57,118 nucleotides of DNA. It comes from Armatimonadota bacterium (GTDB taxonomy: Bacteria; Armatimonadota; Fimbriimonadia; Fimbriimonadales; Fimbriimonadaceae). The notes under the pieces were generated by a model. That model saw only the letters and a list, made by a program, of their open reading frames with translations, ran no database searches and was not told the origin of the DNA. Positions 41,542 to 54,929 of this stretch are shown here, piece after piece. Both the position numbers and the translations under genes were made by a program. Where the stretch lies: NCBI GenBank assembly GCA_016223145.1, contig JACRPN010000008.1, positions 1-57,118 on the forward strand. The letters run 5' to 3'. Each line of letters starts with the position of its first letter. Within the stretch, counting starts at the first letter, position 1.

Positions 41542-41587
41542 TGGTGGGCGATGACGGGCTCGAACCGCCGACATCCTCGGTGTAAAA
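41542..41587 (-). other. 3' fragment of tRNA-Val (TAC), probable attachment site
   Basis: Read on the minus strand this is a tRNA-Val from the anticodon loop (TTTACAC, anticodon TAC) through CGAGG, the variable region, a good T-arm (GGCGG/TTCGAGC/CCGTC-type), acceptor ATCGCCC, discriminator and CCA. The 5' half is not joined to it. An isolated 3' tRNA end starting in the anticodon loop is the usual core of a tyrosine-integrase attachment site. Given its direction, the element should extend to the right, with the intact tRNA-Val at its far end, beyond this window. No integrase gene lies in view. Confidence 0.7.
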
Positions 41588-41887: not shown

Positions 41888-41893
41888 TATAAT
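41888..41893 (+). promoter_or_regulatory. Possible -10 box of the first efflux operon
   Basis: A perfect TATAAT seven bases before the ATG at 41900. No good -35 is at the normal distance. If used, the first gene would be nearly leaderless, or translation would begin at the in-frame ATG at 41918. Confidence 0.35.
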
Positions 41894-41899
41894 CCGCAC

Positions 41900-42313
41900 A
41901 TGCGGCCGGGGGTCGCCATGTTCTGGATTGCAGCGTTAATCTCGAGCCAACTCGGAATTGGCCGGCCCGCTTACGTCATGCCGAACGGCCAGGAGTGCCC
42001 CACGTGCCCGCATTCTCCTTGCCGCGTTCACATCAGTGAAGCACTGCTGATGGGTCACTTCGGGGTCACAGTCGAGAACGATTGTCGTGCGTGCTGCCAA
42101 TTAACGCTCCAGGCGGAGCCCGTATCCAAGCTGTCCATACAAGCGCCGTCGACACCAAGTGTCGAAGTGGCGATGCTCGGCGAAGACTGGTCGATACCCC
42201 AGGGGACAAGAAACCCTCTGGTTCCCATCCTCACGAGAATCCCTGGATGCCCCTCCACCGGCCCTCCTCTCGAACAAGCATCCCGCGCCCCTCCCTGCTC
42301 CTTGCTGCTTTAG
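41900..42313 (+). CDS. Small exported Cys-rich protein heading the first efflux operon
   Basis: 137 residues from the ATG at 41900. A short hydrophobic leader (MFWIAALISSQLGIG) suggests export. The mature part has GQECPTCPHSPC near residue 31 and NDCRACCQL near residue 60, then a variable middle and a TGPP...SRAPP end. The gene at 48248 has the same plan (DGASCQTCP, GDCHDCCAL, GPP...SRAPP) and the same position directly before an outer-membrane channel gene. I do not recognise a named family. A periplasmic metal-binding or sensing role is inferred from the Cys motifs and context. The frame is open from 41756, but the extra part looks non-coding. Confidence 0.6.
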   Translation: MRPGVAMFWIAALISSQLGIGRPAYVMPNGQECPTCPHSPCRVHISEALLMGHFGVTVENDCRACCQLTLQAEPVSKLSIQAPSTPSVEVAMLGEDWSIPQGTRNPLVPILTRIPGCPSTGPPLEQASRAPPCSLLL

Positions 42314-42379
42314 TCGTCTGGCCTGCCGCGGGTTCGACTGCGGCTACGCCACCGGTCCATTCAGCGTTGGAGCAATCGA

Positions 42380-43570
42380 GTGAAACCTTATGTTTTCGTC
42401 CTTCCTTTCTTGGCAGTCGCCAATTGTCCGGCACAAGAGCCGCTGAGCGTCAACGATGCTCTGCGAGTCGCCGCTCAAAACCGGCCAATCGTGCGAGCAG
42501 CACGCCTGCGTCTGGACCAAGCCCGTCTTGCGGCCAGGGTGCTTGGCAGCTATCCGCCGACCTTTTTGGGCGTTGGAAGATCCACGAGATCGGAGGTCGG
42601 GGGGAGCGACGAGGATCTGTTTCTTAGTCAGCCTGTGGATCTTTTTGGACGGTCAGCGGCGGGACGCAAGGCCGGCTTTGCAGACGTGAAGCGTGCCGAG
42701 GCGGAATACCGAGGGGTCATGCTCGACCTGCAAACCGATGTGCTTGAGGCCTACTTCCAGGCTGTGACTGCAACCCGGCTCGCGAGCAGCGCGGACGAGC
42801 TTCTTAAGTTGGCTGAAGGACTAAAAAACGCGGCGCAACGCCGGTTCGACGAGGGGCTGATTCCTGAGGTCCAACTTTTGCGAGCCGACTTGGAGCTTCA
42901 AAAAGCGAGGCAGACGGCGAGTTTGCGTCGCGCTCAGCGAGATTCGGCGATCAAGCGGTTTAGAGGTACCGTTGGCTTCGGAGTATCGGACTTGGACCTG
43001 CGGGCCAGCCTGGCGCCCTTGGAAGCGACTGATGTCTCGGGGCGCGCGGACCTTCTTCAACTTCAAGCCGAAGCGCTCATCGCAGAAGCAGAAGCCGGAA
43101 TCAGTCGGGCTGCGAGGATGCCTGAACTCGAATTGCAGGCCCGGCGATCGCCGTGGACTGAATCGCAAGCACTTTACGGGGCGCGTATCCAGCTCACGTG
43201 GGCCCTGTTCGACCACGGCAAATCTCGCTTTGAAGTCGATTCGGCAAAAAAGAGGGCTGAGGCGGCATTTGAAGCGTTCAGAGATGCCTCGGGGAGGGCA
43301 GAAGCTGAGCTGGCCGCGCTGAAAGGGGAGATCGAAGCGGACAGGGTTCAGGTCGAGAACTACGGAGCGATTCTCGATTCGCTTCGAGCACTCGTCGCTA
43401 AGTCCCAAAAAGGCTTTTCCGAAGGCGTGGGGACTCTGACCGACGTTCTGGAAACGACCCGAACTCTGCGCGAAACAGAGCAGGAGGCGGTCGAAGCAAG
43501 CCTCCGATTTACGCTTGCAGTCACGGCTCAATACAAAGCTGCCGGACACTTGTCGGAGGTCCTGAAGTGA
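42380..43570 (+). CDS. CzcC/TolC-like outer membrane channel
   Basis: 396 residues with a GTG start and a signal peptide (FVFVLPFLAVANCPAQ-like, residues 4-18). It is an outer membrane efflux protein of the TolC superfamily, with two repeats of long helices (about residues 25-200 and 215-395). Typical is the ARRSPWTE segment near residue 255 and the C-terminal GVGTLTDVLETTRTLRETEQEAVEA part, kept here in shortened form. It overlaps the next gene by GTGA. A close paralogue is at 48726. It forms the outer channel of the tripartite metal pump. Confidence 0.85.
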   Translation: MKPYVFVLPFLAVANCPAQEPLSVNDALRVAAQNRPIVRAARLRLDQARLAARVLGSYPPTFLGVGRSTRSEVGGSDEDLFLSQPVDLFGRSAAGRKAGFADVKRAEAEYRGVMLDLQTDVLEAYFQAVTATRLASSADELLKLAEGLKNAAQRRFDEGLIPEVQLLRADLELQKARQTASLRRAQRDSAIKRFRGTVGFGVSDLDLRASLAPLEATDVSGRADLLQLQAEALIAEAEAGISRAARMPELELQARRSPWTESQALYGARIQLTWALFDHGKSRFEVDSAKKRAEAAFEAFRDASGRAEAELAALKGEIEADRVQVENYGAILDSLRALVAKSQKGFSEGVGTLTDVLETTRTLRETEQEAVEASLRFTLAVTAQYKAAGHLSEVLK

Positions 43571-45102
43571 AGCGATTACTAGTCTATTTCCTTCTATTGT
43601 CCGCACTCGCGGGGTGCCAAGGGGGACCTGAGCCTCAGAAGGAAACCGCGTCTACGGCCTCGGTCAATGAGGAGGCGGTAAAGACGGTCGAGCTGAACGC
43701 AGAAGCGCAGCGGACCGCGGGGATCGAGACCGAGGCGGCCGCCTTGCGAATGATGCGAGACAGCCTGGAAGTCCCCGGAGTTGTTACGAGCACGGGTACA
43801 GGGAGGGCGGTTGTAACTCCTCCTGTGCCCGGAAGGGTCGTGTCCCTCCAGGCACAACTCGGCGACTCAGTCCGTGCGGGCCAGACGTTGGGGATCATCG
43901 AGTCGAGCGACCTGGCGCAAGGATGGGCCGCTATTGCCGAAGCGCAGCGATTGCGAGATGCCGCCGCCGCAGATCTTGCCCAAGCCAAGTCCGAGGCCGA
44001 CCTTTCTGCTGCGAAGCTCGATGCGGCGCGTGGGAGTCTAAAGCGGCAGACCGAGCTGGCTCGTGCAGGTGCTTTCAGTCAAGCGCCCCTCCAGAGTGCG
44101 CGAACCGAGTTGAATGAGTCCCAGAGCGAGCTTGTCTCTGCGCAACAAGACCTCAGCTTCAAGTCCGAGCAGCGGAATCGAGCCGAACGCCTTTTCAAAG
44201 AGGGGCTGGTTTCCAAGGCGGATCTGGAGGCGTCAAGACTTGCGGAGCAGCAGTCCAGGATCGCAGTCGACAAGGTCAAAGCACGTGTAGATATCGCAAA
44301 AGCGGCTTTCGAACGCGAGCAGGCCATCTTCGACAGAGGGCTCTTGAATGCCAAAGAGGTTCAGGTTGCTGAGGCCGAGGTTAGAAGCAGCTCGCTCGAC
44401 AAGCAAAGAGCTGAGATTCGAATCCAGTCTGCTCGGGCTGCCTTGGACAATGCCTCTAATGCAGTAGTAAACGCTAAGGCAACCTACAGGAGCCTAAGCG
44501 GGGGAGCCACTGGATCGGTTGGTCGCGTGGCACTGGTCTCCCCCATCACGGGCGTTCTTACCCGGCTGGACGTGACCAAGGGGCAGGCTGTCGAACGCAC
44601 TCAGGCTCTGATGGAAATCGAGAACCTTGGATCGGTCTGGGTTTCCTGCAACGTGCCTGAAATCGATATCGCGAAAGTCCAAATCGGCCAAACGTGCTCC
44701 GTTACAATTGGATCCCAGCCGGGCCGAGAGTTTGCGGGAGTCGTTCAAGTGATCGGCGGCAATCTCGATCCGAAAACCCGGACTCTTCCCGTCCAGTGCC
44801 TCGTTACTGTGGCGAAGGGGTTGCTCAAGCCCGAGATGTTCGCTTCGGTTCGCTTAGGCGTTGGGCGGCAGTCTGAGGTCGTGGCCGTCTCCAAAGCAGC
44901 AATTTCAACGGAAGAAGGCAAGTCCTACGTTTTCGTGAATGCGGGTCAGAAGTTCGAGAAGCGCGAAGTGGAGACGGGCCGAGCAGAGCGTGGATTCGTC
45001 GAGATCCGCACCGGATTGAAGGCGGTCGAGAGAGTTGTGACCCAGGGGGTCTTCGTGCTCGTCAGCGAGTTCAAGCGAGACGAGCTCAAGGGAGAGGAGT
45101 GA
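43567..45102 (+). CDS. CzcB/CusB-like periplasmic adaptor (lipoprotein)
   Basis: 511 residues, GTG start coupled to the channel gene. Signal peptide with lipobox LSALAGC (Cys17), so probably anchored to the inner membrane. The biotinyl-lipoyl half motif (VVTPPVPGRVVSLQAQLGDSVRAGQ, in shortened form) lies near residue 80. A long alpha-helical hairpin runs about 110-300, followed by the second lipoyl half with SPITGVLTRLDVTKGQAV near 320 and a beta-barrel domain. It joins the RND pump to the channel. No N-terminal Met-rich or His-rich metal site is visible. Confidence 0.88.
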   Translation: MKRLLVYFLLLSALAGCQGGPEPQKETASTASVNEEAVKTVELNAEAQRTAGIETEAAALRMMRDSLEVPGVVTSTGTGRAVVTPPVPGRVVSLQAQLGDSVRAGQTLGIIESSDLAQGWAAIAEAQRLRDAAAADLAQAKSEADLSAAKLDAARGSLKRQTELARAGAFSQAPLQSARTELNESQSELVSAQQDLSFKSEQRNRAERLFKEGLVSKADLEASRLAEQQSRIAVDKVKARVDIAKAAFEREQAIFDRGLLNAKEVQVAEAEVRSSSLDKQRAEIRIQSARAALDNASNAVVNAKATYRSLSGGATGSVGRVALVSPITGVLTRLDVTKGQAVERTQALMEIENLGSVWVSCNVPEIDIAKVQIGQTCSVTIGSQPGREFAGVVQVIGGNLDPKTRTLPVQCLVTVAKGLLKPEMFASVRLGVGRQSEVVAVSKAAISTEEGKSYVFVNAGQKFEKREVETGRAERGFVEIRTGLKAVERVVTQGVFVLVSEFKRDELKGEE

Positions 45103-48100
45103 TGCTGGACAAGCTCCTTCACTTCAGCCTGACACAGCGGTTTCTCGTGCTTGCTACGGGATTGGTAGTCGCAGGAGCCGGCATCGCTTCCTGGAAGATT
45201 CTGACTCTTGACGCAGTTCCAGACATCACTCCGAACCAAGTTCAGGTCAACACTGAGACCGGAGGCATGAGCCCTGAGGAGATCGAGAAGCTCGTAACCT
45301 TCCCTGTTGAGACCGCAATGGGAGGCATTCCGGGCGTTCAGGAAGTCCGAAGCATGAGCCAATACGGACTCTCGCAGGTGACCGTCACCTTTCGGGAAGA
45401 CGTCGATATTTTCTTCGCCCGACAGCTCGTTTTTGAAAGGCTTGCGAGCGTCCGGGAACAGATCCCGTCGAATGTAGAGGCGCCCCAAATGGGACCCGTT
45501 GCTACCGGCTTGGGCGACATATACATGTACGCCATTGAGAGCGACGAGCGGAGCCCAATGGAGCTGCGAACCATCCAGGACTGGTTCATCGCGCCTCAGA
45601 TTCGCACCGTGCCAGGCGTCGCTGAAGTGAGCGCCGCCGATGGGAGCCAAAAACAGTATCAAGTCATCGTCAAACCCAGAGCTTTGATCGCACGGGGAAT
45701 CGCGGTCGACGAAGTGGTCTCGGCTCTCCAGAAAAACAACTCGAACGCAGGAGGGGGCGTCGTCGAGCACAGCGGCGAACGAGTCTACGTGCGAAGCGTG
45801 GGCATGGCCACCAAAGTATCCGACATCGAACGCGTTCCGGTGAAATCGGAGGGCGGCGTGCCGGTGCTCGTGAAAGACGTGGCTGAGGTGAAGCTCGGGA
45901 TTCCCGTCCTCACTGGCGTCAGCACCATGAACGGAAAGGAGACCATGGTCGCGGTGGTCATGATGCTCAAGGGGGCAAACGGACGCACGGTCGCCGATGC
46001 AGTCGACGCCAAGGTTCAAGAGATCAAGGGCCAGCTTCCGAAAGACGTGAAGTTGACGGCAGTTTACAACCGCTCAGACCTAGTCAATACAACGGTCCAT
46101 ACGGTCCAAACGAGTTTGTTGGAAGGTGGAGCGCTCGTCATCGCCGTGTTGCTTGTGCTCTTGGGCAATCTTCGGGGAGCGCTCATCGTAGCACTCGCCA
46201 TACCTCTTTCGATGCTCGTTGCCGTTATTGGGATGAACCGGTTCGGCATCTCCGGTAATCTGATGAGCCTTGGCGCCATCGACTTTGGCCTCATTGTGGA
46301 CGGCGCGGTTGTGATGATCGAAAATGCAGTCCGACGCGTTGCGGAGGCCCGGGAAAGGGAGGGGCGAACTCTCACGCGCCATGAGGTCCGTCACACCGTG
46401 CTCGAATCCTCGCGCGAAGTGGCCCAACCGACTGCGTTCGCAGTGGCAATCATCACCGTCGTCTATCTTCCCATTCTCGCGCTTGAAGGAATCGAGGGAA
46501 AGATGTTCAAGCCCATGGCCTTTACGGTAGTGTTCGCGCTCATCGGAGCTCTGATTCTCACGCTCACGCTTATCCCAACCCTTGCCAGCATGGTCCTGTC
46601 CGTAAATACTCGCGAAGCCAGGAATCCGGTCATGGCTTTGCTTTCCAAGCTGTATCGGCCGACGCTTGGGTTCGCGCTTCGGTGGAGATGGCTGATCGTC
46701 GGTGGAGCTGCTGGGCTGATCGTTTTGGCGGGAATCGTCTTTTCGAGGCTCGGCTCAGAGTTCATCCCCCAGCTCGACGAGGGCTCGATTCTCTTGCAGC
46801 CGGTGCGGCTTCGAACCGTGAGCGCGTTGGAGACTGTTCGGCTCGTGGCGGCAGCCGAGAAGAAGGTGCTTGAGATTCCAGAAGTGTCGCACGTCTTCTC
46901 CAAGAGCGGGACCCCCGAGGTGGCGATGGATGCGATGCCGCTGAGCCTCACCGACACGTTTATCATGCTCAAGCCCCGCGACACCTGGCGGTCTGGGATG
47001 ACCAAGTCCAAACTCATTGCGGAAATCGAAGAAAAAGCGAACGAAGTCCCGGGCCAAGGGTACGGCTTTACCCAGCCCATCCAGATGCGGTTCTCCGAAC
47101 TGATCGCTGGAGTCAAGGCCGACGTGGGAATCAAGGTGTTTGGAGAAGACCTCAAGATCCTGAAAGCAAAGGCCGATGAAGCCGCCTCCATCGTAAACAA
47201 GATTCAAGGGGCGGAAGACGTCGAAGTGGAGCAGGTCGACGAGGTGCCGGTTCTCCAGATCGATATCAATCGCGACGCCATCGCCCGCCAGGGTGTGAAC
47301 GTCAGCGAGATTCAAGAGCTCATCGCCGTGGCATTGGGCGGAGAGCCGATCGGCCAGGTGGTCGAGGGCGACAAGCGCTTCGCCTTAACCGTTCGGCTCC
47401 CCGAGAACATTCGCAACGATGTGGACGCTCTGGGCGCCTTGCCGATCGAGACGCCAGTGGGCGGGCATGTGCCCCTTTCGACCTTGGCGAGCCTCAACTT
47501 TGTCCCGGCGCCAGCGCAGATCAGCCGCGAGAGTGGAAAGCGGCGCGTGGTCGTGCAGCTCAATGTTCGGGGCCGAGACTTAGGCTCGTTCGTCAAGGAG
47601 GCTCAGACAGCCCTCAAGTCGAAGATGGCCCTGCCGGAGGGCTATTACGTCACTTGGGGAGGGCAGTTCGAGAACCTGCAAAAGGCGAGCGCCCGGCTGC
47701 TCATTGTGGTTCCGGTGGCCCTTGCACTGATCTTCGTCCTGCTGTTCACGACCTTCGGCTCCATCAAGCAGGCCATTCTCATCTTCAGTGGAGTGCCGTT
47801 GGCGATCACGGGAGGGGTAGTCGCGCTGGCTTTGCGCGGCATACCGTTCAGCATCACGGCGGGGGTGGGGTTCATCGCGCTTTCGGGCGTCGCCGTGCTC
47901 AACGGGGTCGTGATGGTTTCTGCGATAAACCACTTAAGAAAGGACGGCCGCGCCGTGCAGGACGCGGTCAACGAAGGCGCTCAGCTGAGGCTAAGGCCGG
48001 TGCTGATGACCGCGCTCGTGGCTGCCCTTGGGTTCATTCCCATGGCGTTGAACACGGGCATTGGGGCGGAGGTCCAGCGCCCTCTCGCGACCGTCGTTAT

Positions 48101-48197
48101 CGGTGGCATCGCCTCAGCGACCTTGTTGACTCTTGTGGTGTTGCCCGTCCTCTACGTCTGGCTTCACAAGGACCCTGAAGTCGTGGAGGATGTATAG
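45102..48197 (+). CDS. CzcA-like heavy-metal RND transporter
   Basis: 1031 residues from the ATG at 45102 (TGATG overlap). A GTG one codon earlier is also possible, but the paralogue at 51478 supports the ATG. This is the inner-membrane proton-driven pump with 12 membrane segments and two large periplasmic loops (about residues 35-335 and 555-865). The fourth membrane helix carries DFGLIVDGAVVMIEN near residue 393, the signature of divalent-cation (Zn, Co, Ni, Cd) pumps, not the AIGAMVDAA form of the copper/silver pump CusA. So divalent metal efflux is the best reading. Paralogous to 51478-54621. Confidence 0.9.
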   Translation: MLDKLLHFSLTQRFLVLATGLVVAGAGIASWKILTLDAVPDITPNQVQVNTETGGMSPEEIEKLVTFPVETAMGGIPGVQEVRSMSQYGLSQVTVTFREDVDIFFARQLVFERLASVREQIPSNVEAPQMGPVATGLGDIYMYAIESDERSPMELRTIQDWFIAPQIRTVPGVAEVSAADGSQKQYQVIVKPRALIARGIAVDEVVSALQKNNSNAGGGVVEHSGERVYVRSVGMATKVSDIERVPVKSEGGVPVLVKDVAEVKLGIPVLTGVSTMNGKETMVAVVMMLKGANGRTVADAVDAKVQEIKGQLPKDVKLTAVYNRSDLVNTTVHTVQTSLLEGGALVIAVLLVLLGNLRGALIVALAIPLSMLVAVIGMNRFGISGNLMSLGAIDFGLIVDGAVVMIENAVRRVAEAREREGRTLTRHEVRHTVLESSREVAQPTAFAVAIITVVYLPILALEGIEGKMFKPMAFTVVFALIGALILTLTLIPTLASMVLSVNTREARNPVMALLSKLYRPTLGFALRWRWLIVGGAAGLIVLAGIVFSRLGSEFIPQLDEGSILLQPVRLRTVSALETVRLVAAAEKKVLEIPEVSHVFSKSGTPEVAMDAMPLSLTDTFIMLKPRDTWRSGMTKSKLIAEIEEKANEVPGQGYGFTQPIQMRFSELIAGVKADVGIKVFGEDLKILKAKADEAASIVNKIQGAEDVEVEQVDEVPVLQIDINRDAIARQGVNVSEIQELIAVALGGEPIGQVVEGDKRFALTVRLPENIRNDVDALGALPIETPVGGHVPLSTLASLNFVPAPAQISRESGKRRVVVQLNVRGRDLGSFVKEAQTALKSKMALPEGYYVTWGGQFENLQKASARLLIVVPVALALIFVLLFTTFGSIKQAILIFSGVPLAITGGVVALALRGIPFSITAGVGFIALSGVAVLNGVVMVSAINHLRKDGRAVQDAVNEGAQLRLRPVLMTALVAALGFIPMALNTGIGAEVQRPLATVVIGGIASATLLTLVVLPVLYVWLHKDPEVVEDV

Positions 48198-48247
48198 AAA
48201 TAGTGCGGAGTCTGACGATCTGGAACGGTCGGTGGCGTGGGGGTGTT

Positions 48248-48667
48248 ATGGGTATCATCGCCAGGTTGTTTCGTTCCTTTGCCGCAGTGTTGAGCATATT
48301 GCTGGTCGTCGTGGGCCAAGTCCACGCCTGCCAAGAGCAATTTCGCCTGCCAGACGGCGCATCTTGCCAAACGTGCCCCAAGCTGAAGCACCTTCCAGGC
48401 GACCCCCTGGGCTCAGGCTTGGGCACGCAGCACGGCGACTGCCACGACTGCTGCGCGTTGGTAGCTTGCTCTAGCCCTCAGTCTGGAGCCAAGGCGGCCG
48501 TCCCATCGAGCGTCCACTTCGACTTTGCGATGCCGGAGGTGCCCTGCCTCCTTGAGTTTCCAACCGCACCCGTGGCGGCCGGCCCCATCGAACTCATTGA
48601 AACGCACCTGGCGCACGGCCCGCCGTCAGCCGCCTCCTCGCGGGCTCCCCCTTTCTGTCTGAGATAG
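48248..48667 (+). CDS. Small exported Cys-rich protein heading the second efflux operon
   Basis: 139 residues from the ATG at 48248. The open frame from 48203 adds 15 residues that spoil the leader. Clear signal peptide: RLFRSF, then AAVLSILLVVVGQVHA, with cleavage near residue 27 before CQEQF. Motifs DGASCQTCP near residue 36 and GDCHDCCAL near 63 match the protein at 41900, as does the GPPSAASSRAPPF end. Conserved position, Cys spacing and C-terminal tail in two diverged operons argue that this is a real, functional family. It may bind metal or assemble with the pump. I know no named family for it. Confidence 0.65.
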   Translation: MGIIARLFRSFAAVLSILLVVVGQVHACQEQFRLPDGASCQTCPKLKHLPGDPLGSGLGTQHGDCHDCCALVACSSPQSGAKAAVPSSVHFDFAMPEVPCLLEFPTAPVAAGPIELIETHLAHGPPSAASSRAPPFCLR

Positions 48668-48725
48668 TCGTCGTCTATCGCTCCGCCATGCCGGAGCCTC
48701 GACCCTAACTCAGACAGGAGCCTCA

Positions 48726-49928
48726 TTGAAACCCATAGCGCTTTTCGCCTGCGCGGCTGTCGTCCTAACGGCCGCTCAGGCGCAGGAACAAACTCTTCAG
48801 CTTTCCCAAGCCCTCGCCTTTGCACGAGCAAACCGTCCGAGCGTGCAGGCCGCGCAGCTACGCCTGACAAGCGCTCGACTGTCGCGGCGCGGACTTGGCG
48901 CCTATCCCGCGACCCGGCTATTCATCGGCTATCAGAATAACCTCGCCCTCGATGGCACCGAGGCCGATCTTGCGATCGCGCAGCCGATCGATCTTTTCGG
49001 AAGGACCGCTGCTTCGAAAGCGACCGGCGACGCCGAGATCCTTCGGGCTCAGGCTGAACTACAGGCAGTCCTTGCGCTCTTACAGGCCGACGTGATCGAC
49101 GAATTCAGCGAAGCCGCAGCCGCAAGGGCGCTTGCACAGAACGCGGCCCAGATCCAGGAGATCGCTCAACGACTCTATGACTCCATCCGCACTCTGGTCG
49201 ACGAGGGCAAGCTACCGGGTGTTCAATTGATGCGAGTCGGGATCGAACTTGACCGTGCCAAGCTTGCCAACGGTCAGCGAAACGCAGAGCTACAAGCCAG
49301 CCTTCAGCGACTTAGCGGCCTGGTGGGCATGGCAATGTCAGTTGAAGCGTTTGCCGAGCTTTCAGTAAATGTCATTGATCCTGCCCGGCTTCCGGGACAA
49401 AGGGCCGACCTACTTTTGCTCGCTTCAGAAATCCGCGCGGCAGAAGCAGAGACCCGCGTGGCCAAACTTGGCGCCGCTCCAGAACTGGAGATTCAGGGCC
49501 GGCGCTCCCCATGGCAAGAGCGTGATCAGCAATACGGATTGCGGATTCAGCTGGGATTCCCCATCAATGATTTCGGAAAGTCCCGCGCTGAAACGGCCGC
49601 CGCGCGGACCAAGGCAGAAGCAGCGAGAAAGGCGCTGGCGGATGCGACACGAATCGCCGAGTCCGAGCTTGCCGCCGCAAGGACCAATCTGTCCGCGGCA
49701 CAAGAGCAGATTCAGAGATATCAGGCCATCGTCCAGAACGCACGCGCCCTTGTCGAGAAGTCAAGAATCGGCTTCACCGAGAAAGCAATAACGCTGGTGG
49801 AGCTTCTGGAAAGCACGCGAGCGCTTCGAGAGACCGAGGAGGGCCTGGTGGAGTCCAAGCTTCGACTTGCGAAGGCCCAATCCGCCTATTTGAAGGCCAG
49901 TGGCCAGCTTTTGGAGGTGCCCAAGTGA
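48726..49928 (+). CDS. CzcC/TolC-like outer membrane channel, second copy
   Basis: 400 residues with a TTG start preceded by CAGGAG, and a signal peptide (FACAAVVLTAAQAQ). Same two-repeat helical plan as 42380, including QGRRSPWQERDQQYGLRIQL near residue 257 (the paralogue has ARRSPWTESQALYGARIQL) and the closing LVELLESTRALRETEEGLVE. It overlaps the adaptor gene by GTGA. The two operons clearly come from one ancestral operon, but have diverged well beyond recent duplication. Confidence 0.87.
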   Translation: MKPIALFACAAVVLTAAQAQEQTLQLSQALAFARANRPSVQAAQLRLTSARLSRRGLGAYPATRLFIGYQNNLALDGTEADLAIAQPIDLFGRTAASKATGDAEILRAQAELQAVLALLQADVIDEFSEAAAARALAQNAAQIQEIAQRLYDSIRTLVDEGKLPGVQLMRVGIELDRAKLANGQRNAELQASLQRLSGLVGMAMSVEAFAELSVNVIDPARLPGQRADLLLLASEIRAAEAETRVAKLGAAPELEIQGRRSPWQERDQQYGLRIQLGFPINDFGKSRAETAAARTKAEAARKALADATRIAESELAAARTNLSAAQEQIQRYQAIVQNARALVEKSRIGFTEKAITLVELLESTRALRETEEGLVESKLRLAKAQSAYLKASGQLLEVPK

Positions 49929-51478
49929 GAAGGTCAGCAATACCGTCGTTTGTCCTCGCCATGGCCTTGCTCATCGCTGGGTGCGGCAAGCAAAGCCCGC
50001 CGCCAGAAACCCCGCATGTCGAGGCCGAGCATAAGGAGGCCGCACATACCGGAGATATCGTCCTCTCTTCGGAAGCTGCCAAGACAGCCGGCGTCCAGCT
50101 GGAAGAGGCTCGCAACATGCCCATGCAGGGCGAGCTGAAGGTCCCAGGCGTTGTCACGAATTCCTCTCAGGGAAAGGCAGTGGTTACGCCGCCGGTCGCG
50201 GGCAAAGTCACCCAGATGCTCATCGGCGTCGGGGATCGCGTAAAGGCGGGCCAGCCGATCGCGATCATGCAGTCTTCCGACTTGGCGCAGGCATCGGCGG
50301 GGATCATTGAAGCTCAGCGCGACCTCGAAACTTCACAGGCGGCAGTGCGAGAAGCCGCCGCCGAACTGGAACTCTCAAAGGGCCAGCTTAAGACCGCCCA
50401 GGCATCGTTGGATCGTCAAAAACAGTTTGCCAGCGCGGGCGCCTTTAGCCAGCCTGCGCTTCAACAGGCCCAAAAGGACCTCAATGAAGCTGAAACGGAG
50501 CTGGAGGGGGCCATCCAGGAGCATGTCGTGCACGAGGCTCAACTTGAGAGAGCGGAGCGGCTGTTCAAACAGGAGCTCATTTCTCGGAGCGAGTTGGAAG
50601 AAGCAAGGCTCGAAGTCCAAAAGGACCGGCTGCGACAGGAAAGGGCCAAGCGCCAGATCGAGATCGCCAAGGCGACCTTCGAGCGCGAAAAGTCCATTGC
50701 TCAGCGTAACCTGATGAACTCCAGGGAGATTCAAACCGCAGAGGCCGAGGTACGCGCTGCAAGCCTGGGCCTCGAACAATCGAGGATCAAGCACCGTTCC
50801 GCTGTGGCTTCAGAGCGAGGGGCCCGGCAGGGCCTCTTGGCGGCGAAGGTCAGTTATACAGCCCTTTCCGGAAGCGGGCGCGCGTCAGGCGGCGCGGTAA
50901 CCGTTCTCGCACCCATCGGCGGCATCGTCACGGACCGCGAGGCGACCCTTGGACAGGCCTTGGAGCGCACCTCCGAGATCTGCCACATCGAAAACCTGAG
51001 GTCGGTTTGGGTCACGGCCAGTGTCTCTGAAAGGGACATTGGCAAGGTCACGAACGGAGCTTCGGTGCAGGTGGCGGTGAAGGCATTTCCGGGCCGCATC
51101 TTCGCCGGGGTTGTCCAAGTCGTGGGAAGCCGCCTCGACAAGAAGGCTCGGACCATGCCGGTGCAAGTCCTGGTGGACAACGCGGACGGCTCGCTCCGAG
51201 CGGACATGTTCGCCACCGTCTTTCTGGGCGTTGGCCAAAGCGACGTGGTGCTGGCGGTCCGCCGCAGCGCCATCGTCGAGGACGGCGACCACAGGCTGCT
51301 TTACGTCGCGGAAGAGGGCGGCAAGTACGAGGAGAAGGTCGTCGAGCTTGGCCGGACGAAAGGCGAATACGTCGAGGTGCTGAGCGGCCTCGCGGCAGGG
51401 GCCAATGTCGTCGTCAAGGGCGGGTTCATCTTGAAGAGCGAGAAGATCAAGAGCGAACTCAAGGGGCACGAAGACTGA
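49925..51478 (+). CDS. CzcB/CusB-like periplasmic adaptor, second copy (lipoprotein)
   Basis: 517 residues, GTG start. Lipobox LLIAGC gives lipid-modified Cys20. It has a short His-rich start of the mature part (HVEAEHKEAAH, about residues 31-41) that the first copy lacks and that might bind metal. Then come a lipoyl half (VTPPVAGKVTQMLIGVGD) near 88, the helical hairpin (about 115-300), and APIGGIVTDREATLGQAL near 325. It overlaps the pump gene by one base (TGATG). Confidence 0.88.
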   Translation: MRRSAIPSFVLAMALLIAGCGKQSPPPETPHVEAEHKEAAHTGDIVLSSEAAKTAGVQLEEARNMPMQGELKVPGVVTNSSQGKAVVTPPVAGKVTQMLIGVGDRVKAGQPIAIMQSSDLAQASAGIIEAQRDLETSQAAVREAAAELELSKGQLKTAQASLDRQKQFASAGAFSQPALQQAQKDLNEAETELEGAIQEHVVHEAQLERAERLFKQELISRSELEEARLEVQKDRLRQERAKRQIEIAKATFEREKSIAQRNLMNSREIQTAEAEVRAASLGLEQSRIKHRSAVASERGARQGLLAAKVSYTALSGSGRASGGAVTVLAPIGGIVTDREATLGQALERTSEICHIENLRSVWVTASVSERDIGKVTNGASVQVAVKAFPGRIFAGVVQVVGSRLDKKARTMPVQVLVDNADGSLRADMFATVFLGVGQSDVVLAVRRSAIVEDGDHRLLYVAEEGGKYEEKVVELGRTKGEYVEVLSGLAAGANVVVKGGFILKSEKIKSELKGHED

Positions 51479-54400
51479 TGCTTGACAAACTGCTTCACTT
51501 CAGCCTTACCCAGCGGCTGCTCGTCATCATGGGCGCGATTGCGCTTGCTATCTGGGGCGGGGTCTCTTGGACGCGGCTCAATCTCGATGCCGTGCCGGAC
51601 ATCACCACCAACCAGGTTCAGATCAACACGGAAACGGGCGGTATGGGACCCGAGGAGGTCGAGCGCCTCGTCACCTTCCCCATCGAGACGGCGATGGGCG
51701 GGCTGCCGGGCGTGGAGGGAGTGCGGTCCCTAAGCCAATATGGCCTTTCCCAGGTGACGGTCACCTTTGGCGACAGTGTGGATATCTTCTTCGCTCGCCA
51801 ACTCGTAAACGAACGGCTTGGCAACGTGCGAGAGGTGCTTCCAACGAGCATTGAAGCGCCCCAAATGGGACCTGTTTCTACGGGACTCGGGGACATTTAC
51901 ATGTTTGCGGTCGAAAGCGACAAGCGTGACATGAAAGAGCTTCGCTCGATCATGGACTGGCAGATTTCTCCTCAGGTCCGAACCGTCCCCGGCGTAGCCG
52001 AAGTCAACGTGGCCGATGGGAACGTCAAGCAATATCAGGTCGTTGCCGACCCCATGCGGTTGCTGGCCCACGGGCTGGGAGTTCATGACCTGATCGAGGC
52101 TCTTCAGAACAACAACCAGAATGCAGGCGGCGGCGTGGTGGACAGCGGCGGCGAGAGGGTGCTTATCCGCTCGGTTGGAATGGCAACTAAGTCCGCTGAC
52201 ATTGAGAACATCCCCATCGCGACCGAGGAGGGCACGCCGGTTCTCGTGAGGGACGTGGCCGACATCGAGATGGGAGCGCCCGTTCTCACCGGTATCTCAT
52301 CCAAAGACGGCAAGGAAGCGCTCATCGCCATCGCCATGATGCTCAAGGGTGCGAACGGTCGGACGGTCGCTGAAGCGGTCGGAAAGCGCATAAGAGAAGT
52401 GCAGGCGCAGCTTCCCGAGGACGTGAAGCTCACCCCTGTCTACAACCGCTCCGTACTGGTGAACAAGACTATCGGTACCGTCCAGAAGAACCTCCTGGAA
52501 GGCGGCGCTCTCGTCATCATCGTCCTTCTCGTGCTTCTCGGCAATTTGCGAGGCGCGTTGCTAGCGGCTCTAGTGATTCCGCTGTCCATGCTCTTCGGGT
52601 TCTCCTTGATGACCAGCTACGGCGTATCCGGAAACCTCATGAGCCTCGGAGCAATCGACTTCGGTCTGATCGTGGACGGAGCCGTGTTCATGATCGAGAA
52701 CATGGTGCGGCGGCTTGCGGAACGCCGCGCACACGAGGGTCGGACCCTCTCGAAAGAGGAGGTTCGACAATCCGTCCTCGAGGCCTCGCGAGAGGTTGCC
52801 AAGCCCACGCTGACTGCCCTGGCGATCATCACCGTCGTCTACATCCCGATTCTTGCCTTGGAAGGAACGGAAGGCAAGATGTTCAAGCCGATGGCCTGGA
52901 CCGTCGCGTTTTGTCTCATCGGAGCGCTTCTCTTCACTCTCACCTTGGTCCCCGCGTTGGCGAGCTTGGTTCTATCCGGTGACACCCGAGAAAAGCACAA
53001 TCCGGTGATGGGCTTCTTCAGCAAGCTCTACTCGCCGACGCTTGGCTTTGCCTTGAGGTTCAAGGCGCTGGTCGTTGGAGCGTCGGTGTTGGTTCTCGTG
53101 GCGGCCGGGCTCGTCTTCACCCGTCTTGGTTCCGAGTTCATTCCCAGGCTTGACGAAGGGGACCTGGTCGTTCAGCCCCTTCGAGCACGCACAGTTAATG
53201 CCGAGGAGACCAGTCGGCTCGTGACTGCCGCTGAGAGAAAGGTGATGGAAGTGCCCGAAGTGGTAACAGTCTTTTCTCGAAGCGGAACGCCCGAGGTTGC
53301 CTCAGATCCGATGCCTCTGAGCATCACCGACTCCTACGTGATCCTGAAGGAGCGCCGCCAATGGCGCGCGGGCATGACGAAGGACATGATACGCGAAGAG
53401 ATCGAGAAGAAAGTCAGCGAAGTTCCTGGACAGGGCTACAACTTCTCCCAGCCGATCGAGCTCCGGTTCAACGAGCTGATCTCGGGTGTCAAGGCCGACA
53501 TCGGGATCAAGGTTTTCGGCGAAGACCTCGACATCCTCAAGCAGAAGGCAGACGAGATTGCGGCCGTCGTGCGGGCGCTCCCCGGTGCGGCGGACGTGGA
53601 AGTTGAGCAGGTCGAGCCGATACCCGTTCTCCAATTCGATATCGACCGGGAGGCCATCGCGCGCTATGGCGTGAGCATCCACGAGATCCAGGAACTGGTC
53701 AGCTCGGCCTTAGGTGGAGAGGAGATCGGCCAGATTGTCGAAGGTGACAAGCGGTTTGGCATGGTCGTCCGGCTTCCCGAAGACATCCGCAACGACGCGG
53801 AGGCGATTGCCAGCTTGCCCGTGAAGGCGAGCAACGGGGAGAGCGTGCCTCTGTCGTCATTGGCCCACATCGACAACAAGCCTGCACCCGCGCAGATCAG
53901 TCGAGAATCGGGCAAGCGCCGTGTAGTGGTGCAGATGAACGTCCGCGGCACCGACATGGGCACGTTTGTAGCCCAGGCGCAGCAGGCGATCCAGAGCAAG
54001 GTCAAGCTCCCCGAAGGATACTACGTCACCTGGGGCGGCCAGTTCGAGAACCTGCAGAAGGCGAGCCAACGGCTCATGATCGTCGTGCCCGCCGCGCTGG
54101 CACTCATCTTCATGATTCTATTCATGACCTTCGGCTCCATCAAGCAGACGCTGCTCATCTACACGGGTGTACCTCTCGCGGTCACCGGAGGCGTGTTCGC
54201 CCTGGCGATGCGCGGCTTGCCGTTCTCCATTTCGGCCGGTGTCGGGTTCATCGCGCTCTCGGGCGTTGCCGTGCTCAACGGCGTCGTCATGGTCTCAGCG
54301 ATCAACCGGCTCCGGGAGGAACACGGACTGTCGGTTGCAGAAGCCGTGCGCCAAGGGGCCATGGAAAAGCTTCGGCCCGTGCTCATGACGGCAATGGTGG

Positions 54401-54621
54401 CCGCCCTGGGCTTCGTTCCCATGGCGATCAACACCGACATTGGCGCGGAAGTCCAGCGGCCGTTGGCCACCGTCGTGATCGGCGGCATCGCCTCGGCCAC
54501 GCTGCTGACGCTCCTCGTTCTGCCGGTACTCTACACGTGGTTCGAGCGCGCCCGGCCCGCGCCCGTCATCGTCACCCCCGAGGGCCAGGAAATGCCCCAG
54601 GAGAAGGAGATCATCGAATGA
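51478..54621 (+). CDS. CzcA-like heavy-metal RND transporter, second copy
   Basis: 1047 residues, ATG start. Same family as 45102, with the same N-terminus (MLDKLLHFSLTQR) and the same NQVQ(I/V)NTETGGM and GAPVLTG-type blocks. The helix-four motif is DFGLIVDGAVFMIEN, again the divalent-cation type. The C-terminus has an extra cytosolic tail ending EMPQEKEIIE. It overlaps the PII-like gene by ATGA. Two such pumps side by side may differ in metal range or in affinity. Confidence 0.9.
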   Translation: MLDKLLHFSLTQRLLVIMGAIALAIWGGVSWTRLNLDAVPDITTNQVQINTETGGMGPEEVERLVTFPIETAMGGLPGVEGVRSLSQYGLSQVTVTFGDSVDIFFARQLVNERLGNVREVLPTSIEAPQMGPVSTGLGDIYMFAVESDKRDMKELRSIMDWQISPQVRTVPGVAEVNVADGNVKQYQVVADPMRLLAHGLGVHDLIEALQNNNQNAGGGVVDSGGERVLIRSVGMATKSADIENIPIATEEGTPVLVRDVADIEMGAPVLTGISSKDGKEALIAIAMMLKGANGRTVAEAVGKRIREVQAQLPEDVKLTPVYNRSVLVNKTIGTVQKNLLEGGALVIIVLLVLLGNLRGALLAALVIPLSMLFGFSLMTSYGVSGNLMSLGAIDFGLIVDGAVFMIENMVRRLAERRAHEGRTLSKEEVRQSVLEASREVAKPTLTALAIITVVYIPILALEGTEGKMFKPMAWTVAFCLIGALLFTLTLVPALASLVLSGDTREKHNPVMGFFSKLYSPTLGFALRFKALVVGASVLVLVAAGLVFTRLGSEFIPRLDEGDLVVQPLRARTVNAEETSRLVTAAERKVMEVPEVVTVFSRSGTPEVASDPMPLSITDSYVILKERRQWRAGMTKDMIREEIEKKVSEVPGQGYNFSQPIELRFNELISGVKADIGIKVFGEDLDILKQKADEIAAVVRALPGAADVEVEQVEPIPVLQFDIDREAIARYGVSIHEIQELVSSALGGEEIGQIVEGDKRFGMVVRLPEDIRNDAEAIASLPVKASNGESVPLSSLAHIDNKPAPAQISRESGKRRVVVQMNVRGTDMGTFVAQAQQAIQSKVKLPEGYYVTWGGQFENLQKASQRLMIVVPAALALIFMILFMTFGSIKQTLLIYTGVPLAVTGGVFALAMRGLPFSISAGVGFIALSGVAVLNGVVMVSAINRLREEHGLSVAEAVRQGAMEKLRPVLMTAMVAALGFVPMAINTDIGAEVQRPLATVVIGGIASATLLTLLVLPVLYTWFERARPAPVIVTPEGQEMPQEKEIIE

Positions 54622-54929
54622 AGGAAGTCAAAGCGGTCATCCGGCCGCACAAGCTGGACGATGTGCTGAACGCCCTGCACAAGATCGGGCGCCTGCCGGC
54701 GGTAGTCAGCTCCCAGGCCACCACGACCAACGTCGGCGCGGAGTTCTACGAGTCAGAGCCGATGGCCAAGATCGAGCTCATGGTCCCGGACGATCAGGTC
54801 GAGGCGGTGATCGGCCTGATCGCCCAGGCCGCGCACACCGGCAACGCGGGCGACGGGCGCATCTTCATCATTCCGATCGAAGACAGCATCGTCATCCGCA
54901 CCGGCGAGCGAGGGGAAGCAGCCAGGTGA
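54618..54929 (+). CDS. PII-like signalling protein linked to metal efflux
   Basis: 103 residues from the ATG at 54618, ATGA overlap with the RND gene. The KEVKAVIRPHKLDDV start and GDGRIFIIPIEDSIVIRTGE end are PII-fold signatures (the GDGxIFxxP motif near residue 76 is the nucleotide-binding B-loop/C-terminal part). The T-loop region is divergent and lacks the uridylylated tyrosine context of GlnB. A PII subgroup encoded with CusA/CzcA-type pumps has been described (PII-NG). It may tune pump activity or expression by nucleotide or metal state; that is inference. Confidence 0.8.
   Translation: MKEVKAVIRPHKLDDVLNALHKIGRLPAVVSSQATTTNVGAEFYESEPMAKIELMVPDDQVEAVIGLIAQAAHTGNAGDGRIFIIPIEDSIVIRTGERGEAAR

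Follow-up and report, generated by a model that had tools for sequence, protein, structure and literature searches.

In a member of the Fimbriimonadaceae (Armatimonadota; GenBank contig JACRPN010000008.1), two heavy-metal efflux sets of the resistance-nodulation-division (RND) type lie in tandem, each in the order outer-membrane channel (OEP), periplasmic adaptor (membrane fusion protein, MFP) and CzcA (42380-48197 and 48726-54621 of the window, meaning here the whole stretch of 57,118 nucleotides that was analysed). Directly ahead of each set stands a small open reading frame (ORF) for an exported cysteine-rich protein. We propose that both of these upstream ORFs, uORF 1 and uORF 2, are very probably cis-acting translational arrest leaders of the pump genes behind them, and that they probably sense metal. 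Sequence and computation provide a protein family, its linkage to efflux operons, an arrest motif, a fixed spacing between the Cys cluster and that motif, and a masking helix that shows compensatory change and has a set place relative to the motif.

The two window proteins match each other weakly (E=1e-4). An earlier note on this DNA had grouped them by shared motifs, and both ORFs are indeed real, with P(N/D)Gx(E/S)CxTCP, DCxxCCxL and GPPxxxxSRAPP in common; the uORF 1 protein has lost two elements, the HxC that closes the signal peptide and the final Cys of DCxxCCxxxxC. A hydrophobic N-terminal helix, a putative Sec signal peptide, is seen both in the alignment and in the AlphaFold2 model. 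The ratio of non-synonymous to synonymous substitution rates (dN/dS) is 0.18-0.36 among close relatives, which argues for a translated protein under selection. A profile of 24 relatives scores the window proteins at E=5.9e-35 and 7.5e-38, both being inside the profile, so that this is not an independent test. Homologues of the uORF 2 protein occur in 27 of 61 related genomes (best E=2e-19), and the 24-member profile finds the family in 50 of 291 Armatimonadota genomes, 49 of them from the order to which the window belongs; the named relatives are Fimbriimonadales and Armatimonadota. A pattern scan for HGDCHDC over about 85,000 species genomes gave 29 confirmed loci; their records are titled Armatimonadetes, Fimbriimonadaceae or Chthonomonas, apart from two under other names and two called just 'bacterium'. 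Records named Methanoregulaceae archaeon SJ84 (L062) and Cryobacterium ACE_ACT6 (L088) carry the leader family together with the operon, and their titles or bins are probably wrong. No plasmid-borne homologue of the family was found in a plasmid search.

The window proteins have no Pfam or NCBIfam match at E<=1, in agreement with the earlier claim of a new family. By these two collections the leader family is new; with the published list of CutF-like proteins (PMC9973294), which sorts them into 29 similarity clusters, it was compared by the rules of that list. For DUF2946 (PF11162), neither window protein nor any of the 24 relatives gave a match at E<=1, a PF11162 search of the window's genome found nothing, and hhalign against Armatimonadota DUF2946 proteins returned a probability of 3.9%. 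True or borderline DUF2946 proteins ending in R[AG]PP are present in other Armatimonadota (L145-L150, L154), with no detectable homology to the leader family. The CopL family NF033807 was not matched by the window proteins and was matched weakly by 2 of the 24 relatives (best E=0.0013). A sequence search of the PDB turned up one hit of low significance, a multiheme cytochrome (E=0.0044), which was taken as chance because of the Cys and signal-peptide composition.

Linkage to CzcA-type operons, also claimed earlier, proved strict when checked across relatives. The next gene encodes an OEP in 30 of the 31 members first collected. From 61 distinct proteins gathered, 51 form a close core (E<1e-20), in which an OEP follows within about 35-120 nucleotides save in three members: in one the contig ends right after the ORF, in L091 an MFP and an RND gene follow with no OEP detected, and L026 (L109:3001-3393) has no efflux operon. 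The top-scoring CzcA-type matches in the 61 genomes are paired with a core leader in 28 of 28 cases. In the window the gene directly after each ORF is the OEP gene (PF02321) of an OEP-MFP-CusA/CzcA set, as the note had it, starting 66 nucleotides after uORF 1 and 58 after uORF 2. Its description of both ORFs as heading RND operons holds for uORF 1; uORF 2 lies about 50 nucleotides past the first czcA in a tandem array and heads no separate operon. Wherever the sequence covers the region concerned, the RND genes linked to core members show IDFGxIVDGAV(V/I/F)xxEN, a signature which, from what is known of CzcA, we take to indicate divalent cations rather than copper or silver.

The proteins share an unusual C-terminus. 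An R[AG]PP tail is found in 58 of the 60 complete members (37 RAPP, 21 RGPP), the exceptions being REPP (L026) and RSPP (L069), and a second PP lies five residues ahead of RxPP in nearly all of them. RAPP ends 5 residues before the C-terminus in uORF 1 and 4 in uORF 2. In long ORFs of the same loci RAPP or RGPP occurs 10 times, and SRAPP or SRGPP not once, in about 282,000 residues, a rough figure only, as this background includes spurious frames. RAPP has been shown to arrest ribosomes, since peptidyl-RAP in the P site forms no bond with the Pro that occupies the A site (PMC10951233), and RGPP arrests with equal or greater strength (PMC12992588). Proteomes avoid both motifs, yet small secreted proteins, some of which precede metal genes, are enriched in them at their ends (PMC12992588), and RAPP is required in CruR (PMC9426467). 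In L026 the R[AG]PP motif and the efflux operon have been lost together.

The nucleotides directly 3' of the RxPP codons are complementary to the Shine-Dalgarno sequence of the next gene. At uORF 2 of the window, CTGTCTGAG can pair with CTCAGACAG(GAG), and at uORF 1 TGCTCC can pair with GGAGCA. Duplex formation and covariation were tested in 25 non-redundant members with short tails. The duplex between the 17 nucleotides after RxPP and the OEP Shine-Dalgarno averages -14.5 kcal/mol, against -7.7 kcal/mol for permuted partners (0/20000 as low), and a position scan peaks at RxPP alone (-13.9, other parts of the ORF lying at about -5.8). The predicted masking helix shows compensatory change across the family: 3-6 kinds of canonical pair occur in each of nine columns, no two of the 25 helices are alike, and the native covariation score was reached by 0/20000 permutations. 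The predicted cost of opening the OEP site is 11.1 kcal/mol on free mRNA and 3.4 once a ribosome is stalled at RxPP. If the 12 nucleotides after RxPP are shuffled, the cost on free mRNA falls from 10.5 to 5.0. The offset of the arm varies less relative to RxPP (standard deviation 2.4 nucleotides) than relative to the stop codon (3.7), and in L079 and L099, which have two residues after RxPP, the arm runs over the stop codon.

A subgroup with long tails, 13-17 residues after RxPP, has the OEP site masked by a hairpin of its own, TGCTCCA...TGGAGCA. The element GCTGGA, 23-25 nucleotides after RxPP, can pair with TCCAGC of this hairpin; it is read in three frames (Ala-Gly, Leu-Asp or Trp-Thr) and is therefore kept as RNA. 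The predicted cost of the site is 9.0 when free, 5.3 with a ribosome stalled at RxPP and 10.5 with GCTGGA covered. The subgroup looks to be an attenuator-like variant of the switch, working through a competing upstream element. These members bear on plain translational coupling, in which any passing ribosome would open the helix, RxPP would be incidental and nothing would be sensed. Coupling would suit the short-tailed ORFs, where any ribosome at the end is predicted to open the helix (cost 3.8 at the stop codon), but the long-tailed site is predicted to be closed with a ribosome at the stop codon and more open only at RxPP. As RxPP is also kept in 58/60 members and in unrelated leaders, and is avoided elsewhere in proteomes (PMC12992588), we consider this explanation very improbable.

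The distance from the CC of DCxxCC to RxPP is held at 62-65 residues in 47 members (mean 63.5, standard deviation 0.6), although the middle of this linker has a pairwise identity of 17-21%. The middle of the proteins, which the earlier note described as unrelated, is so in sequence but nearly constant in length. HxC and CxxC are exactly 12 apart in 44/44 members, and the spacing from CxxC to DCxxCC is variable, at 18 to 32. With the 24 relatives as input, AlphaFold2 gave a predicted template modelling score (pTM) of 0.34 and little structure beyond the N-terminal signal-peptide helix. A linker of constant length with neither sequence nor fold conserved fits a chain threaded through the ribosome and the translocon, and we infer that DCxxCC would be near the periplasmic exit during a stall. 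The conserved Cys positions make metal binding by the leaders plausible.

Another reading is a stable periplasmic chaperone that buffers metal or delivers it to the pump, the CusF- or CzcE-like role suggested in the earlier note, and the signal peptide, the conserved Cys/His residues and the strict linkage to pump genes would agree with one. Neither the window proteins nor their relatives match a CusF, CzcE or CzcI profile in Pfam or NCBIfam, the model, essentially unfolded, shows no CusF-like fold, and the low pTM speaks against a stable protein. A chaperone would, moreover, leave unexplained the RxPP arrest tail, a linker of fixed length and free sequence, and tail codons that pair with the next Shine-Dalgarno. 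We therefore regard it as improbable.

Under the arrest-leader reading, the signal peptide would target the nascent leader for export, and the ribosome would stall at R(A/G)PP, with RAP or RGP occupying its P site and Pro its A site. During the stall DCxxCC, 63-64 residues back, would be at about the point where the chain emerges from the translocon into the periplasm, and metal on the Cys/His ligands would hold the chain back and so prolong the stall, as proposed for CutF. The stalled ribosome would cover roughly 10 nucleotides after RxPP, which is the arm masking the OEP Shine-Dalgarno; the site would open and CzcC would be translated, with CzcB and CzcA following by coupling, as the genes overlap by a few nucleotides. 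When no metal is present, export would pull the chain through, the ribosome would terminate and leave, and the mRNA would refold to the OFF state. In the long-tailed subgroup the competing upstream element would lead to an equal outcome. Stalling itself and metal as its signal are what we infer from these features, and the metal would be a divalent ion, judging by the type of pump. The stall would be the ON state, and metal would prolong it, given an RNA logic in which stalled means open and an efflux pump that needs induction by metal.

This sense is opposite to that of a CruR-like leader, which would act by Rho-dependent termination with no unmasking of a Shine-Dalgarno, metal relieving the stall. 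CruR has the RAPP tail, the CxxC and the operon-leading position in common with the leaders described here. Its intergenic region, however, is 162 nucleotides, against about 40-66 in nearly all members here; a conserved masking helix is present here; and under a CruR-like mechanism metal would turn efflux off. A Rho-dependent mechanism is therefore quite unlikely.

Several points weigh against the leaders being arrest switches of the proposed kind. Their support comes from sequence and computation. Kinship among the 25 members was left uncorrected in the duplex statistics, and the covariation count uses helices picked for each sequence, controlled by permutation. RNAalifold found no consensus structure when given a MAFFT alignment, made without anchoring, of the stretch from tail to start, in which the arms do not line up; partner permutation, the position scan and anchored pair counts were used in its place. 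The pairing was not found in L104, L108 and L122 (the start of the next gene is uncertain in L108 and L122), and the fold at uORF 1 is modestly better than shuffles (z = -1.5). L026 is the sole case that ties loss of the motif to loss of the operon. Among characterised systems, CruR acts by way of Rho and with the sense reversed (PMC9426467), and the Pro-rich tail of CutF did not stall strongly when isolated.

The closest parallel is CutF of Rhodobacter capsulatus, also a small exported ORF with a Cys metal-binding motif and a C-terminal PP, followed by a short intergenic stretch and a stem-loop that masks the Shine-Dalgarno of the next gene (PMC9973294). Both window leaders are below 150 amino acids, have PP in the last 15 residues and are followed within 1000 nucleotides by a gene in the same orientation, as the rules for CutF-like genes have it, and a shielded Shine-Dalgarno is predicted by computation. 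The commonest neighbour of CutF-like genes is the OEP of RND systems, and some of their clusters are His-rich (PMC9973294). CutF differs in regulating the oxidase CutO by copper, whereas the pumps here are of divalent-metal type; the CutF-like catalogue is mostly from Pseudomonadota and Bacteroidota, its main text naming no Armatimonadota (PMC9973294). Unlike in CutF, the masking arm in this family consists of the codons right after RxPP and shows compensatory change.

CruR of Bordetella pertussis (DUF2946/PF11162) likewise heads metal operons and has a conserved spacing between its Cys motif and RAPP (PMC9426467). The leader family has the same combination of CXXC and C-terminal RAPP at conserved spacing, with a different value: about 46 residues from Cys cluster to RxPP in CruR, by published positions, against 63-64 here. 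CruR further differs in its use of Rho, its long intergenic region and an importer that copper switches off (PMC9426467), and DUF2946 homology is not detectable in the leaders here. In ApdP, ApdA and SecM-type arrest peptides, RAPP lies near the C-terminus of a secreted uORF and the stalled ribosome exposes the ribosome-binding site of the next gene, as we propose here (PMC10951233). These sense Sec/YidC activity and precede secDF, yidC or secA (PMC10951233), whereas the leaders here precede OEP-MFP-CzcA, with a Cys cluster as the proposed sensor and a metal pump as target. CzcI of Cupriavidus metallidurans is also a small exported ORF before czcCBA and a suggested metal-sensing regulator, but it lacks a C-terminal proline motif (PMC9973294), and no CzcI profile match is found here. 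That exported, PP-tailed uORFs regulate metal genes, with OEP as the commonest neighbour, is already published (PMC9973294; PMC9426467). New here are the leader family and its phylum, the position-specific, co-varying anti-Shine-Dalgarno, the attenuator element read in three frames, the ruler of 63-64 residues and the exchange of sensors on one tail.

This exchange is seen in the other heavy-metal RND operons of these genomes that pass the TIGR00914 cut-off, tallied by hand. An R[AG]PP-tailed ORF precedes the OEP in 42 of the 44 with upstream sequence (in G049 the tail sits in a long open frame); one has RSPP and one (G015) none. Leaders of the pump class with VVDDSIVDVEN in the fourth transmembrane segment (TM4) are His-rich, and those of family f2 have a different Cys pattern. 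The anti-Shine-Dalgarno is also present in L110, L130, L132, L137, L138 and L144, and was not found in L131, L139, L140 and L141, which are other RxPP-tailed leaders. We lean, with little more than even confidence, towards a rule for Fimbriimonadales in which heavy-metal RND pumps are governed by interchangeable nascent-chain sensors. At least three metal-binding modules, unrelated to one another, would share the R[AG]PP tail (HxC/CxxC/DCxxCC with core pumps of DGAVVMIEN type, His-rich with the VVDDSIVDVEN type, and CHEQ...CDC in a second family) and be read out by two different RNA switches, each cluster sampling the periplasm at a fixed distance from the stall site.

Similar tails were seen ahead of other genes. 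An exported SRAPP-tailed ORF with no Cys cluster (L112:2752-3189) precedes a cytochrome b561 gene (PF01292), suggesting that the tail serves other targets. A Cys-rich SRAPP-tailed ORF (L113:2959-3258) lies ahead of a gene for a YHS/TRASH-domain protein, and a Cys-rich RAPP-tailed ORF (L111:3004-3321) ahead of a gene weakly resembling LTXXQ (CpxP/CnrR-like), with an RND set further on.

The features of the window are collected in the table. uORF 2 could also start further upstream, at a GTG at 48203, and the two RND pumps score 1299.7 and 1285.4 bits with TIGR00914 in a whole-genome search. A TATAAT lies six bases ahead of the uORF 1 ATG (41888-41900) and would make the uORF 1 mRNA leaderless; a promoter scan upstream of uORF 1 found nothing on the + strand, the TATAAT going unreported because it has no -35 match. 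A search of Rfam gave no match at either leader, and a weak tRNA-like match near 41545 alone. A gene for a P-II-type signalling protein (PF00543, E=1.6e-16; 54615-54929, + strand) overlaps the end of the second czcA, and a PII-like protein inside a heavy-metal operon is worth separate attention.

Table. Positions of the leaders, their proposed regulatory elements and the efflux genes in the window.
Feature	Position	Strand	Evidence
uORF 1, exported Cys-rich leader, 137 aa	41900..42313	+	ORF list, motif comparison, family profile
uORF 1 CPTCP motif	41996..42010	+	sequence
uORF 1 DCRACC motif	42080..42097	+	sequence, conservation in family
uORF 1 RAPP putative arrest motif, first Pro codon expected in P site	42284..42295	+	arrest biochemistry of motif (PMC10951233)
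uORF 1 predicted anti-Shine-Dalgarno stretch TGCTCCTTGCTG, within footprint of a RAPP-stalled ribosome	42296..42307	+	-16.8 kcal/mol, shuffle P=0.005
Shine-Dalgarno region of OEP gene 1, GGAGCA	42369..42374	+	predicted fold pairs GGAGCA with 42296-42301
OEP 1 (CzcC-type outer-membrane channel)	42380..43570	+	PF02321
Periplasmic adaptor 1 (CzcB-type)	43567..45102	+	PF16576/TIGR01730
CusA/CzcA-family RND pump 1, DFGLIVDGAVVMIEN signature	45099..48197	+	TIGR00914
uORF 2, exported Cys-rich leader, 139 aa	48248..48667	+	ORF list, motif comparison, homologue search, profile
uORF 2 CQTCP motif	48365..48379	+	sequence
uORF 2 DCHDCC motif	48437..48454	+	sequence
uORF 2 RAPP putative arrest motif	48641..48652	+	tail survey of family
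uORF 2 predicted anti-Shine-Dalgarno stretch TTCTGTCTGAG	48653..48663	+	-19.7 kcal/mol, 0/200 shuffles as low
Inner hairpin GCTCCG...CGGAGC, between both arms (uORF 2)	48680..48697	+	region z = -4.0
Complement and Shine-Dalgarno of OEP gene 2, CTCAGACAGGAG	48709..48720	+	duplex and fold prediction
OEP 2 (CzcC-type)	48726..49928	+	PF02321
Periplasmic adaptor 2 (CzcB-type)	49925..51478	+	PF16576
CusA/CzcA-family RND pump 2	51478..54621	+	PF00873, TIGR00914

CruR and CutF are the metal-responsive arrest leaders dissected in the literature cited here, two in all. The present family would extend this kind of leader to Armatimonadota and to divalent-metal pumps. Comparative sequence alone would locate both the required stall and what the stall opens, and short constructs would allow a direct test of how a nascent chain senses metal. 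Of the 'small Cys-rich periplasmic proteins' encoded before efflux genes, many may be regulators that are read on the ribosome.

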